A DNA stretch of 64,000 nt from NCBI RefSeq assembly GCF_005217525.1, contig NZ_PNXQ01000014.1, positions 113,486-177,485 on the forward strand. The letters are read 5' to 3'. The stretch is from Paenibacillus terrae. Lineage in GTDB: Bacteria > Bacillota > Bacilli > Paenibacillales > Paenibacillaceae. The stretch's first letter is position 1. Each line of letters starts with the position of its first letter. Made by a program: the position numbers and the translations under genes. Below the pieces are notes generated by a model. The model saw nothing but the letters and a program-made list of their open reading frames with translations, ran no database searches and had not been told where the DNA came from. Shown in pieces: positions 48,031 through 51,745 of this stretch.

Positions 48031-49068
48031 TTAAACCGTCACATAAGCGGCAAGCAGACGAGCAGTGTTCACCACAGCCAGCTTGTGCGTACGCTCCATC
48101 GCATGGGAGGCGTGTACGCCAGGGCCGATCAGCGCAGCACGGATATTGTTGCCTGCTTTCAGCGCAGCCGAAGCGTCAGAACCATAGTGCGGATAAATAT
48201 CAACCGCATACGGGATATTCAGCTCCTTGGCCAGCTCAATCAGACGAGTCGTCATGTCATAATCATAAGGCCCGGAAGAATCCTTGGCACAAATGGATAC
48301 ATCCGTCTCCTTGCAGCTCAGATCCTCGCCTATGCAACCCATATCGACAGCAATCATCTCGCTGACCCCTTCAGGGATGTAAGCAGCTCCGTGACCGACT
48401 TCCTCATAGTTGGAGATGAGCAGCTTAACAGTATGACGGGGCTTCCAGTCTTCGCGTACAGCGGATTCCAATAAACCAAACAGCGCAGCTACGCTGGCTT
48501 TATCATCCAGATGCCGCGACTTGATAAAGCCGCTGGGTGTCACGACCGGACGGGCGTCGAACGAAATAAAATCGCCTACCGCAATGCCGAGCTGGAGCAC
48601 ATCTTCTTTGGATTCAACAAGCTCGTCGATCCGCACCTCCATATGGCTTTCCTTGCGTTCAAAGCTGCGTGCATCATCATAGACATGCACAGACGGATGG
48701 CTCGACAAAATCGTGCCTGTATACGTTTGTCCGCTTCTGGTATGAATAAGGCAGTATTCGTTTTCGATGCTGTTCATCATGAAACCGCCGACAGATGTCA
48801 GGCGCAAGGTGCCGTGACTGGTAATCGAGCGTATCATTGCGCCTAATGTATCCACATGCGCGCTCAGTGCAATTGTAGGGCCTTTTTCATGGCCCTCCAG
48901 GGTCAAGATGGCACCGCCTTTGGCGTTCCATTCTATGGGCATCCCAAGGCTTGCGGCTTCCTTACGGATCAGTTCCATCACATGATGTGTGTAGCCGCTG
49001 GGACTAGGGGTGTTCAATAGTTGATTCAGAAAGCTCATTATATAATTCTCATTCAGGTGAATCGTCAT
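48031..49068 (-). CDS. M42 family metallo-aminopeptidase
   Basis: A 345-residue cytosolic peptidase of the M42 (YsdC/FrvX-like) family. Metal ligands include H in SAHVDTLGAM, D in KSRHLDDKAS, the E-E pair in SNYEEVGHG and D in IAVDMG, with a last His in HASHAMERTH. ATG 49068 follows GGAGGAG by 7 bp; a longer start overlapping the previous stop (ATGA) lacks spacing. It is the second gene after the LapA-like gene. Confidence 0.92.
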   Translation of the reverse strand: MTIHLNENYIMSFLNQLLNTPSPSGYTHHVMELIRKEAASLGMPIEWNAKGGAILTLEGHEKGPTIALSAHVDTLGAMIRSITSHGTLRLTSVGGFMMNSIENEYCLIHTRSGQTYTGTILSSHPSVHVYDDARSFERKESHMEVRIDELVESKEDVLQLGIAVGDFISFDARPVVTPSGFIKSRHLDDKASVAALFGLLESAVREDWKPRHTVKLLISNYEEVGHGAAYIPEGVSEMIAVDMGCIGEDLSCKETDVSICAKDSSGPYDYDMTTRLIELAKELNIPYAVDIYPHYGSDASAALKAGNNIRAALIGPGVHASHAMERTHKLAVVNTARLLAAYVTV

Positions 49069-49082
49069 GTTGTTGCTCCTCC

Positions 49083-49460
49083 TCATTTGGACAACCGGTC
49101 AGGCTCAGAGGACGTTTGCTCTGTAACCTTGTCGGATGTAGACACCACACTGGACGAACCAGACGTGTTATAGACGGTATCCGCATATGCTTCCACAGCG
49201 GGTGTGTGCTCTTCTTGTAGTGTATGAAGCTGGGTGGTCAGACGTTTGATTTCTCTCTGAAGCTTATATTGACGGAAAATACCGAAGGAACCGACGATAA
49301 GCCCTCCAAGAAGAGTGCAGCCGAGAATAAGTAAAATCAAAGGAACGTTGACCGTACGAAATAGTAGATTTACTTGGACCGATTTCACGTTAATGACAGC
49401 GAATACAGCCGTTAACAAAGCAATAACAAGAGCTGCAATCAAAGACCATTGTGTTTTCAA
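49083..49460 (-). CDS. LapA-domain (DUF1049) membrane protein
   Basis: A 125-residue protein with two membrane helices (about 5-25 and 40-62) and a helical coiled tail with a Ser/Thr-rich end. The LapA domain (VNVKSVQVNLLF...VPLILLILGC) is typical. TTG 49460 has AGGAGGT 7 bp upstream, and the longer open frame lacks a site. In E. coli LapA pairs with LapB in LPS assembly; the Gram-positive role is unknown. Confidence 0.85.
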   Translation of the reverse strand: MKTQWSLIAALVIALLTAVFAVINVKSVQVNLLFRTVNVPLILLILGCTLLGGLIVGSFGIFRQYKLQREIKRLTTQLHTLQEEHTPAVEAYADTVYNTSGSSSVVSTSDKVTEQTSSEPDRLSK

Positions 49461-49561
49461 AATGCCACCTCCTTCCGCTACATTATAAAATCCCTTGCCC
49501 GTCATGGACAAGGGATTTATCCGTGCATCGTTTCAATGCCGGATTCTAATCGTGTATGGTT

Positions 49562-51358
49562 TTACTTTCCGGCGGTCAGCTTTTCCATTTCCGTAATAAC
49601 TTCCTCGAATACGCTCATCGCTTCGCGAATGGGTTGTGGAGAGGACATATCCACGCCGGCCTTCTTCAAAATATTAATCGAATAATCGCTGCCGCCGCTC
49701 TTCAGGAATCCTAAATAACGGTCAACGGCTGGCTGGCCTTCTTCCAGAATCTGTTTTGAGAAGCTGGTTGCCGCAGAGAAGCCGGTAGCATATTTGTAGA
49801 CATAAAAGCTGTTATAAAAATGGGGGATACGCGCCCATTCCATTTCAATGTCTTTGTCTACTTTCATGCCAGGGCCGTGATATTTCACATTCAGATCATA
49901 ATAAATCTCTGATAGAAGCTGCGGTGTAAGGGACTCTCCCTGTTCTGCGCGTTCATGTACGATTTTCTCGAACTCCGCAAACATCGTTTGACGGAATACC
50001 GTCGTGCGGAATTGGTCCGCATAGTAGGTAAGGAGGTACATTTTCTCTTTTGCATCGGTAGATTTTTTCAGCAAGTAGTCCATCAGCAACGCTTCATTCG
50101 TTGTCGATGCTACTTCAGCCAGGAAAATGGTGTACTGGGCATCCCGATACTTTAACGCATTATCCGAGTAATACGAATGCAGCGCGTGTCCCATCTCGTG
50201 AGCGAGCGTGAACATGCTGTTCAGATTATCTTTATGGTTCAGCAGCACATAAGGGTGAGTGCCGTAAGCGCCCCAGCTGTATGCACCTGTACGTTTATTT
50301 TCATTTTCGTACACATCAATCCAGCGGTCATCGTAGCCTTTTTGCAACGAAGCCAGGTAGTCCTTGCCCAACGGCTTTAGACCTTCCTTCGTTTGCTTTT
50401 TAGCATCTTCAAATGAAATATCGAGCTTGTATTCGTCCACAAGCGGAGCAAACAGGTCATACATATGAAGCTCATCCACACCCAGCAGCTTTTTACGTAG
50501 CTTGATATAACGGTGCAGCAAAGGCAAGCTCTCGTGAATGGTATCAATCAGATTGGTGTACACTTCCTTCGGAATATTGTCACCGTATAATGACATTTCC
50601 AGTACGGAAGGGTACTTGCGAACACGAGAATAAAAAACATTTTTGTTCACATTGGCACTCAATGTGGAAGCAATCGTATTTTTATTTTTGGCATACGTAT
50701 CATAGACCGCTTTAAAAGCACGCTCCCGTACTTCCCGGTGCGGGCTTTCAAGAAATTGAATATAGCTGCCATGTGTCAGCTCAGCCTCTTTGCCGTTTTC
50801 ATCCTTGATTTTTGGGAATTTCATATCGGCATTGTTCAGCATACCGAAAATGGTTTGTGGTGCTTGAGCCAGGTTACCAACCTGTGCGAGCAGGGCTTCT
50901 TCCGACTTACCCAAAATATGCGCTTTCTCCCGTTTCATTTCTTGAAGCGTAAAGCGATAATCTGCCAGCTTCGGATCTCCAATCAATGCATCGAGCTGAT
51001 TGTCGGGCAGCGCCAAAATTTCAGGTGTCACGAAAGACAGGGCTTCACTAACCTCAACGCCTAATTTTTTGGCTTTTTGTGAAAGGCCCTGATATGTAGG
51101 TTCAGCCGTATCCTCGTCATGATGTAGATGGGCGTATACGTATACACGCTCGGTTTTGAGTGATAGTTCATCTTCCAGCTTAAAGCAATTGACAATCACT
51201 TCGGCTGAATTGAGCTTGCCTTGGAATTGTGTAGCCTTTTTGGCTAATTGTTTGACTTCTTCGTACTCTTGATCCCATGCTTTACGGTCTGGAAACAGAT
51301 CATCAAGCTTCCAGGTATTTTCCACAGGCGCATCTGCGCGTTTTACGATTTCACTCAT
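49562..51358 (-). CDS. pepF: Oligoendopeptidase F
   Basis: A 598-residue M3B zinc peptidase. The HExxH site is in LAHEMGHALHS and the third ligand Glu lies in LAEVASTTNEALLM. It cleaves oligopeptides, usually in the cytosol. ATG 51358 has AGGAGG 6 bp upstream, and the length equals that of the family. However, the frame stays open for 44 more codons to 51490 and encodes a signal-peptide-like leader with its own AAGGAGG, so a longer exported form (about 639-642 residues) is possible; see findings. Confidence 0.94.
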   Translation of the reverse strand: MSEIVKRADAPVENTWKLDDLFPDRKAWDQEYEEVKQLAKKATQFQGKLNSAEVIVNCFKLEDELSLKTERVYVYAHLHHDEDTAEPTYQGLSQKAKKLGVEVSEALSFVTPEILALPDNQLDALIGDPKLADYRFTLQEMKREKAHILGKSEEALLAQVGNLAQAPQTIFGMLNNADMKFPKIKDENGKEAELTHGSYIQFLESPHREVRERAFKAVYDTYAKNKNTIASTLSANVNKNVFYSRVRKYPSVLEMSLYGDNIPKEVYTNLIDTIHESLPLLHRYIKLRKKLLGVDELHMYDLFAPLVDEYKLDISFEDAKKQTKEGLKPLGKDYLASLQKGYDDRWIDVYENENKRTGAYSWGAYGTHPYVLLNHKDNLNSMFTLAHEMGHALHSYYSDNALKYRDAQYTIFLAEVASTTNEALLMDYLLKKSTDAKEKMYLLTYYADQFRTTVFRQTMFAEFEKIVHERAEQGESLTPQLLSEIYYDLNVKYHGPGMKVDKDIEMEWARIPHFYNSFYVYKYATGFSAATSFSKQILEEGQPAVDRYLGFLKSGGSDYSINILKKAGVDMSSPQPIREAMSVFEEVITEMEKLTAGK

Positions 51359-51500
51359 GGAGAGCCTCCTCTTATCGAACGAAATGTGGGGTGGGGCTGC
51401 GGCGGAACGGGGCGGCTGCCAAAATGAAGAAACCGCCACGCTGACCGTGAGCAGCAGAGCAAGAGGTTTTGTGGCATGCATGAACGGCATATCCTCCTTA

Positions 51501-51525
51501 TACCATGGCTTGTTATGCCATAGTA
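51501..51525 (-). repeat. Leader hairpin in front of the upstream pepF ribosome binding site
   Basis: On the minus strand TACTATGGC and GCCATGGTA form a 9-bp stem (one G-U) with loop ATAACAA. It ends two bases before AAGGAGG at 51499-51493. Such a hairpin next to a Shine-Dalgarno supports use of that site. Confidence 0.6.
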
Positions 51526-51556
51526 TGACCTCTTGCGCCCAAAAGTATCATTTTCC

Positions 51557-51745
51557 TTACCTTGGGTCGGAACCTATATTTAATAAGCTGTATACAATAA
51601 GATAAAAGGCAAAGCAAACCATGATTACGGCAGTGAGGGCCATCCACTTTTTGAGAGGAGCCGGTAACGTATCACGTTTCATGATCAGCACTCCGCCCAG
51701 CGTAAAGGCCAGAATAATGAAGATGAGAAAGCTATTGGACACCAT
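51557..51745 (-). CDS. Small two-helix membrane protein
   Basis: A 62-residue protein made of two hydrophobic helices joined by a basic loop (MKRDTLPAPLKKW). The ribosome binding site is weak (AGG 12 bp upstream), but it starts 7 bp after the stop of the preceding gene and may be translated by coupling. No family recognised. Confidence 0.5.
   Translation of the reverse strand: MVSNSFLIFIILAFTLGGVLIMKRDTLPAPLKKWMALTAVIMVCFAFYLIVYSLLNIGSDPR

Follow-up and report, generated by a model that had tools for sequence, protein, structure and literature searches.

Oligoendopeptidase F (PepF) of the type described in Bacillus subtilis and Lactococcus (M3B, TIGR00181) is regarded in the literature as an intracellular enzyme, and its substrates are short peptides. 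Alternative translation starts that yield products differing by a signal sequence are exemplified by SpeA of Escherichia coli. The intermembrane space that separates forespore and mother cell is not known to hold proteases other than signalling and remodelling enzymes. SpoIIR (σF) and SpoIVB (σG) of B. subtilis, which combine a forespore-type promoter with an export signal, have this space as their destination according to PMC4383634. Overexpression has connected PepF of B. subtilis with sporulation (Kanamaru 2002, as cited by later papers). Paenibacillus polymyxa SC2-M1, a strain that reportedly forms no endospores, expresses a pepF copy that is activated by MsmR1 and that may or may not correspond to the one described here, and deletion of pepF lowers the expression of spore and biofilm genes (PMC9722767); expression in this strain therefore suggests some expression outside sporulation. 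Among the papers listed, titles and abstract openings on oligoendopeptidase F, combined with either signal peptide or Paenibacillus, mentioned no dual starts, and the listings held no usable bacterial precedents for genes with such dual starts.

The window analyzed here is a stretch of 64,000 nucleotides from Paenibacillus terrae. Its pepF gene had been proposed in the initial annotation to encode both a cytosolic and an exported PepF, a reading that the comparative evidence presented below supports; in addition, the dual start appears to be linked to sporulation, a connection the initial annotation lacked. The features concerned are as follows.

49562 to 51358, minus strand: pepF, oligoendopeptidase F, short form of 598 aa, an M3 peptidase with HEMGH (TIGR00181).
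51359 to 51481, minus strand: 41-codon leader from the conserved ATG at 51481, signal-peptide-like, MHATKPLALLLTVSVAVSSFWQPPRSAAAPPHISFDKRRLS (conservation, dN/dS).
51365 to 51370, minus strand: internal Shine-Dalgarno (SD) site AGGAGG, read as Arg-Arg (AGG AGG) in the leader frame (conservation).
51419 to 51463, minus strand: hydrophobic core of the leader, LALLLTVSVAVSSFW (hydropathy), with a candidate signal-peptidase site SAAA-P just downstream that ends near 51395.
51493 to 51499, minus strand: SD site AAGGAGG of the long form (-11.1 kcal/mol).
51501 to 51525, minus strand: 9-bp dyad TACTATGGC/GCCATGGTA overlapping the -10 block (folding, -13.9 kcal/mol, z -3.5).
51521 to 51530, minus strand: -10-like block GGTCATACTA of forespore (σF/σG) type (motif logo; comparison with SASP, spoIIR, gpr and spoIVA).
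51543 to 51548, minus strand: -35-like block ATACTT (HATAWTT in relatives), its ATA 18 nt ahead of CATACTA (motif logo).

The catalytic part of this PepF is that of a full family member; at 685 bits the TIGR00181 match exceeds the cut-off of 490.55, and it covers positions 1-591 of the 591 in the model. The translation of the gene contains HEMGH, an instance of the HExxH zinc motif. The family alignment spans residues 51-638 of the 642-aa long form and two solved homologue structures align from its residues 71 and 47, which places the first 44 residues outside the enzyme. The short form has no export signal and the long form carries the conserved signal-like leader. Directly upstream of pepF is a 62-residue membrane-type ORF (51557-51745) with no Pfam or NCBIfam match, and visual inspection suggests that in many relatives, too, such a reading (...VYS...MG) stands before pepF. 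Downstream of pepF on the same strand (48031-49511), genes for a LapA-domain protein and an M42 peptidase are possibly co-transcribed with it. Among the matches listed, a second PepF with 32-36% identity appears for many leader-bearing relatives, but none is listed for the window's own genome or its closest group.

The good ribosome binding site reported for the start at 51358 was recovered as AGGAGG at 51370-51365, preceding the ATG, and the frame was confirmed to stay open for 44 codons upstream. AAGGAGG (51499-51493) had been reported to precede two in-frame ATGs, at 51490 and 51481; all of these are present and 51481 is conserved, but 51490 is in frame in this genome only, a 1-base difference putting it out of frame in the near relatives (L002-L008). 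The SD spacing is 11 nt for 51481, which is long, and only 2 nt for 51490, and the SD energies in the window are -12.3 kcal/mol for the internal start and -11.1 kcal/mol for the leader start. That chance frames rarely combine such features was borne out among the window's 90 ORFs of 120 codons or more: seven have two strong-SD starts separated by 25-60 codons, and in pepF alone a hydrophobic stretch lies between two such starts (peak 2.43; next best 1.14).

For comparison, each of the 59 related genomes proved to contain pepF, and these, the named genome contigs and further genomes of the class gave 159 loci, 152 of them distinct; 135 belong to the order and 17 (L135 and L229-L244) were set apart as outside it, and the counts are not independent as near-identical species remain among the 152. 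Of the 135 pepF loci of the order, 131 have a further start in the same frame, 18-75 codons upstream. The hydrophobic peak reaches at least 1.6 in 130 of these 131 leaders in frame, compared to 25 and 9 when the two alternative frames are read, and the first eight residues are net positive in 129. Both the positive n-region and the hydrophobic core expected of a Sec signal are therefore found in nearly all leaders, which together with the in-frame coding constraint described below supports the proposal that the extension is a probable signal peptide. The leader SD is at -6 kcal/mol or below in 130 of 131 loci, the exception being L048, and 129 combine this energy with the hydropathy of at least 1.6, L048 and L092 failing the strict criteria; within its range, each internal and upstream start was chosen as the candidate with the best SD, a choice that favours strong SDs, and the frame, hydropathy, codon and dN/dS results are independent of SD strength. 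AxA-like sites follow the core in 110 of 131 leaders (mean 88.6 and maximum 102 with shuffled tails), giving no more than moderate support to a possible cleavage by signal peptidase, and five leaders have a lipobox-like look. By the same criteria, a comparable leader is absent from 16 of the 17 pepF loci outside the order; the exception, L135, passes the numeric criteria with 23 codons. The four loci of the order that are leaderless are L059, L086, L106 and L245.

Upstream of the leader, loci aligned on CATAMTA show two blocks with near-fixed spacing, HATAWTT and then GGNCATACTA (HATA, 18 nt). With one mismatch, this two-block pattern matches window positions 51521-51548 (G000:C14:165006-165033). 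In 103 of 131 loci, CATAMTA lies no more than 200 nt from the leader start (3.5 on average after shuffling; 8 on the reverse strand), and CATAMTA or GGNNANACTA does so in 117, leaving 14 of 131 with neither form. These motifs are found in none of the four leaderless loci of the order and in one of the 17 loci outside it. A later set of loci gave the motif in 32 of 39 leader-bearing versus 1 of 14 leaderless loci; the leaderless L332 has a chance-level CATAATA, and a hydrophobic 25-codon stretch without an SD.

The motif was first spotted in these very pepF loci, and the comparisons with other genes are the fair tests. SASP genes are assigned to σG, gpr to σF/G, spoIVA to σE and spoIVB to σG. 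CATAMTA is present in 29 of 30 SASP upstream regions of the same genomes, and the broader CAHAMTR in 30/30 SASP (shuffle mean 6.7), 22/28 spoIIR (3.5) and 25/29 gpr regions (7.3), as it is in 119/131 leader-bearing pepF loci (15.4), compared to 5/21 leaderless or outside pepF loci (2.9). It was found in none of 29 spoIVA regions (3.4); spoIVA replaced spoIID as σE reference, the choice of start for spoIID being ambiguous. The -10 element is thus like that of known forespore genes. Many spoIIR regions show GG.CATACTG, and several gpr regions CACACTA or CACAATA. A GG before the -10 (GGNNANAYT) occurs in 22/28 spoIIR, 3/30 SASP and 4/29 gpr regions; as the GG before the pepF -10 is common to spoIIR and not to SASP or gpr, σF is the favoured candidate. 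The -35, HATA at 18 nt in most loci and ATACTT in the window, differs from the forespore consensus GCATA/GTATA. According to PMC4383634, spoIIR is under σF, and the σF promoter of B. subtilis csfB (GTATA / GGGGAGGCTA) has the GG....CTA -10 pattern in common with pepF, which has HATAWTT where csfB has GTATA. Upstream of the leader there would thus be a conserved pepF promoter resembling the forespore type. A regulon defined by the motif was also considered and rejected, since no enrichment over control and no recognizable regulon were found; in the window's own genome, the two-block pattern has 17 matches versus 23 for the control and the exact GGTCATACTA one occurrence versus 14.

The 9-bp leader hairpin (51501-51525) of the initial annotation is present as a dyad, but its role as an RNA hairpin is doubtful, as the -10-like CATACTA (51527-51521) overlaps it; this overlap means that the dyad may be a DNA element and may not be transcribed. 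Some related Paenibacillus have a dyad at a similar position with different letters, which still pair in, for example, L009, L015 and L034, and in the other loci shown it is weak or absent. Folding of 86 segments gave a mean z of -1.01, with 39 below -1 and strong hairpins in several Paenibacillus, and the hairpin was rejected as a general conserved RNA element. An operator or a 5' RNA hairpin are both possible.

None of the four leaderless loci of the order has the promoter motif, and one of their genomes, G045, has no spoIIR match. The prediction that leaderless genomes lack spoIIR held in the three further leaderless genomes, and eight of eight leader-bearing genomes were spoIIR-positive. 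Across 296 genomes of the order, 16 had no spoIIR match, namely 15 of one genus and G045. A follow-up of 54 genomes hand-chosen from the 296 (14 spoIIR-less members of genus g19 and 40 spoIIR-positive) found the leader in 0 of 14 further g19 members and in 39 of 39 spoIIR-positive genomes from many genera; of its 53 loci, 33 leader-bearing and 12 leaderless ones are new and eight were in the earlier set, G225 being excluded from the counts because it yielded no pepF at 1e-200. Among genomes of known leader status, the leader is thus present in 0 of 16 spoIIR-negative and 100 of 100 spoIIR-positive genomes (G170, the same record as G043, was left out), and the Fisher's p of 6e-20 for this table is overstated, as it ignores that two events stand behind the negatives. 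The spoIIR-positive G039 (locus L048) has a leader with a weak SD.

The spoIIR-less genomes represent two lineages only, one genus, to which Saccharibacillus and P. dauci belong, and the long-branch G045. In the tree, the leaderless genus is nested inside leader-bearing relatives (a branch of 40 rows), and one loss of the leader can therefore be placed there; the spore-gene evidence for this genus is spoIIR alone. Saccharibacillus is described as being without spores. The placement of G045, on its long branch, is unsure, and since it is over the cut-offs for spoIID, gpr (partial) and spoIVA in spite of having no spoIIR match, it may still sporulate. None of the 15 g19 genomes examined, G103 and G203 among them, has a spoIIR match, which suggests one loss of spoIIR at the base of the genus. 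Two g19 loci are identical, over the stretch compared, to the loci of Saccharibacillus qingshengii and P. dauci (L086), and P. dauci may be misplaced in Paenibacillus.

These comparisons make it fairly probable that one gene gives cytosolic and exported PepF and that the exported form is tied to sporulation, probably in the forespore. Alternatively, the dual start could have a general role, the exported form serving nutrition or peptide signals in growing cells and the promoter being read by another sigma factor, with the joint absence of leader and spoIIR being coincidental; we regard this as unlikely but worth weighing. SpoVT is taken as cytosolic. The pepF expression under MsmR1 in a reportedly non-endospore-forming strain (PMC9722767) would fit a general role, as would the presence of a pepF/M3 protein in P. 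larvae exoprotein fractions (PMC6527061); these fractions also hold SpoVT and similar proteins, and therefore lend little support to export. An AT-rich upstream block like TATAAT in several genera points the same way, as does the restriction of spoIIR absence to two lineages, one of which keeps matches to spoIVA, gpr and spoIID. A σA promoter, however, was rejected as the main reading of the upstream block, as no σA -35 block appears in the logo, and it is retained here only as part of this alternative. Moreover, the -10 block matches the corresponding sites that these genomes have at spoIIR, SASP and gpr genes, and promoter and leader are jointly absent from the leaderless loci, where one chance-level motif was found in 14.

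It is improbable that only the long form is made, PepF of the order being exported or membrane-anchored and the internal start a relic or rarely used. Such a reading accounts for a near universal leader with its own SD, but not for the retention of the internal start, which is ATG in 134 and GTG in one of the 135 loci of the order and has an SD at -9 kcal/mol or below in 134. The internal SD also persists as a nucleotide sequence, in otherwise rare AGG codons and at a near-fixed distance, despite divergence of the leader protein. AGGAGG begins 12 nt before the internal start in 114 of 131 loci, 15 nt in two and 18 nt in seven. The Arg-Arg pair of the leader is written AGG-AGG in 123 of 131, while AGG accounts for 0.9% of the 2759 Arg codons of the enzyme cores and, outside this pair, for 11 of the 147 Arg codons of the leaders. 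In L057, the sole locus with an out-of-frame SD, the Arg pair is lost and the SD is retained. Within a leader selected as protein there is thus an SD selected as ribosome site, which argues that both starts matter. Two in-frame starts, each with its own conserved SD, are accordingly supported as an order-wide trait of pepF.

Translation of the short form only would mean that the leader is a regulatory upstream frame, or promoter or 5' UTR sequence open by chance, from which no stable fusion arises. The leader start codons (ATG in 72, TTG in 42 and GTG in 17 of 131 loci) are weak in the 59 with TTG or GTG, and the window combines the long SD spacing of the leader with a better SD at the cytosolic start, all of which would suit this very improbable reading. 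An untranslated stretch, however, would face no selection for a signal peptide, and the hydrophobic core and positive n-region are found in almost all leaders. The leader dN/dS, from 28 disjoint pairs, is 0.38 in frame and 1.05 and 1.71 in the shifted frames (0.063 for the enzyme part in the same comparison). Substitutions by codon position number 71/48/126, and stops interrupt the other two frames in 116 and 82 of 131 loci. A regulatory frame, moreover, normally has its own stop, whereas this one is continuous into pepF in 131 of 135 loci. Refutation had been tied to leader codons that are unconserved or stopped in relatives, and the leader was instead found to be in frame and under coding constraint; it evolves as coding sequence in the pepF frame only, the pattern of a translated signal peptide.

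That the in-frame AGGAGG is a ribosome pause aiding membrane targeting of the nascent leader, and not a start site, is hardly credible, because its position about 35 codons past the leader start, roughly where the signal would emerge, is outweighed by its retention as an AGGAGG-type SD in the leaderless L059, L086, L106 and L245, where it is usable only as the SD of their start, and by PepF outside the order, whose start falls in the region of the internal ATG and has an SD at -9 kcal/mol or below in 10 of 17 loci.

Seven pepF genes outside the order (L135, L229, L231-L234 and L236; Aneurinibacillus, family f21) have a GC-rich hairpin GCGG...CCGC between the SD (AAGGGGG, AAGGAGG or alike) and the ATG, with changes that keep pairing (GCGGT/ACCGC, GCGGC/GCCGC). 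In L236, GTGGC/GCCAC pairs by eye and is absent from the short-segment fold. It looks like the hairpin would bridge an over-long SD spacing in these start sites.

In the preferred reading of a sporulation-linked dual start, initiation at 51358, behind the strong AGGAGG, would produce the ordinary cytosolic oligopeptidase, and initiation at 51481 would add to this enzyme an N-terminal Sec signal peptide that moves it across the membrane. Leader, leader SD and forespore-type promoter would form one module of the spoIIR-bearing members of the order, and because the module spans these members, the forespore is the likeliest setting. Secretion would then carry the long form into the space that divides forespore from mother cell, with the short form retained in the forespore, so that both may jointly cleave short peptides on either side of the membrane; the simplest role in the intermembrane space would be peptide clearing or recycling. 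More tentatively, and with the doubt slightly outweighing the confidence, sporulating Paenibacillales may use the two conserved starts, behind a forespore promoter, to put a single oligopeptidase to work on each side of the forespore membrane, and may have dropped the module with the loss of sporulation.

By comparison to known systems, PepF outside the order starts near the internal ATG, with a leader in none of the 17 loci except L135. SpoIIR and SpoIVB likewise combine a forespore-type promoter with an export signal; unlike them, pepF keeps a cytosolic start and has no known signalling role, and its destination is suggested by analogy. SpeA-type genes likewise have two in-frame starts, the longer product carrying a signal sequence, but the pepF starts are conserved across an order and apparently tied to a developmental program. 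What is new is therefore a variant of PepF, of location-changing alternative starts and of forespore-secreted proteins, and not a new kind of system. If true, pepF would represent a deeply conserved case of bacterial dual localization through alternative translation starts, one that the DNA by itself reveals, since the leader spells the internal ribosome site as two rare Arg codons. A signal peptide followed by AGG-AGG and an in-frame ATG offers a search recipe for further genes of this type, and PepF, if the reading is correct, would gain a defined position within the sporulation program.
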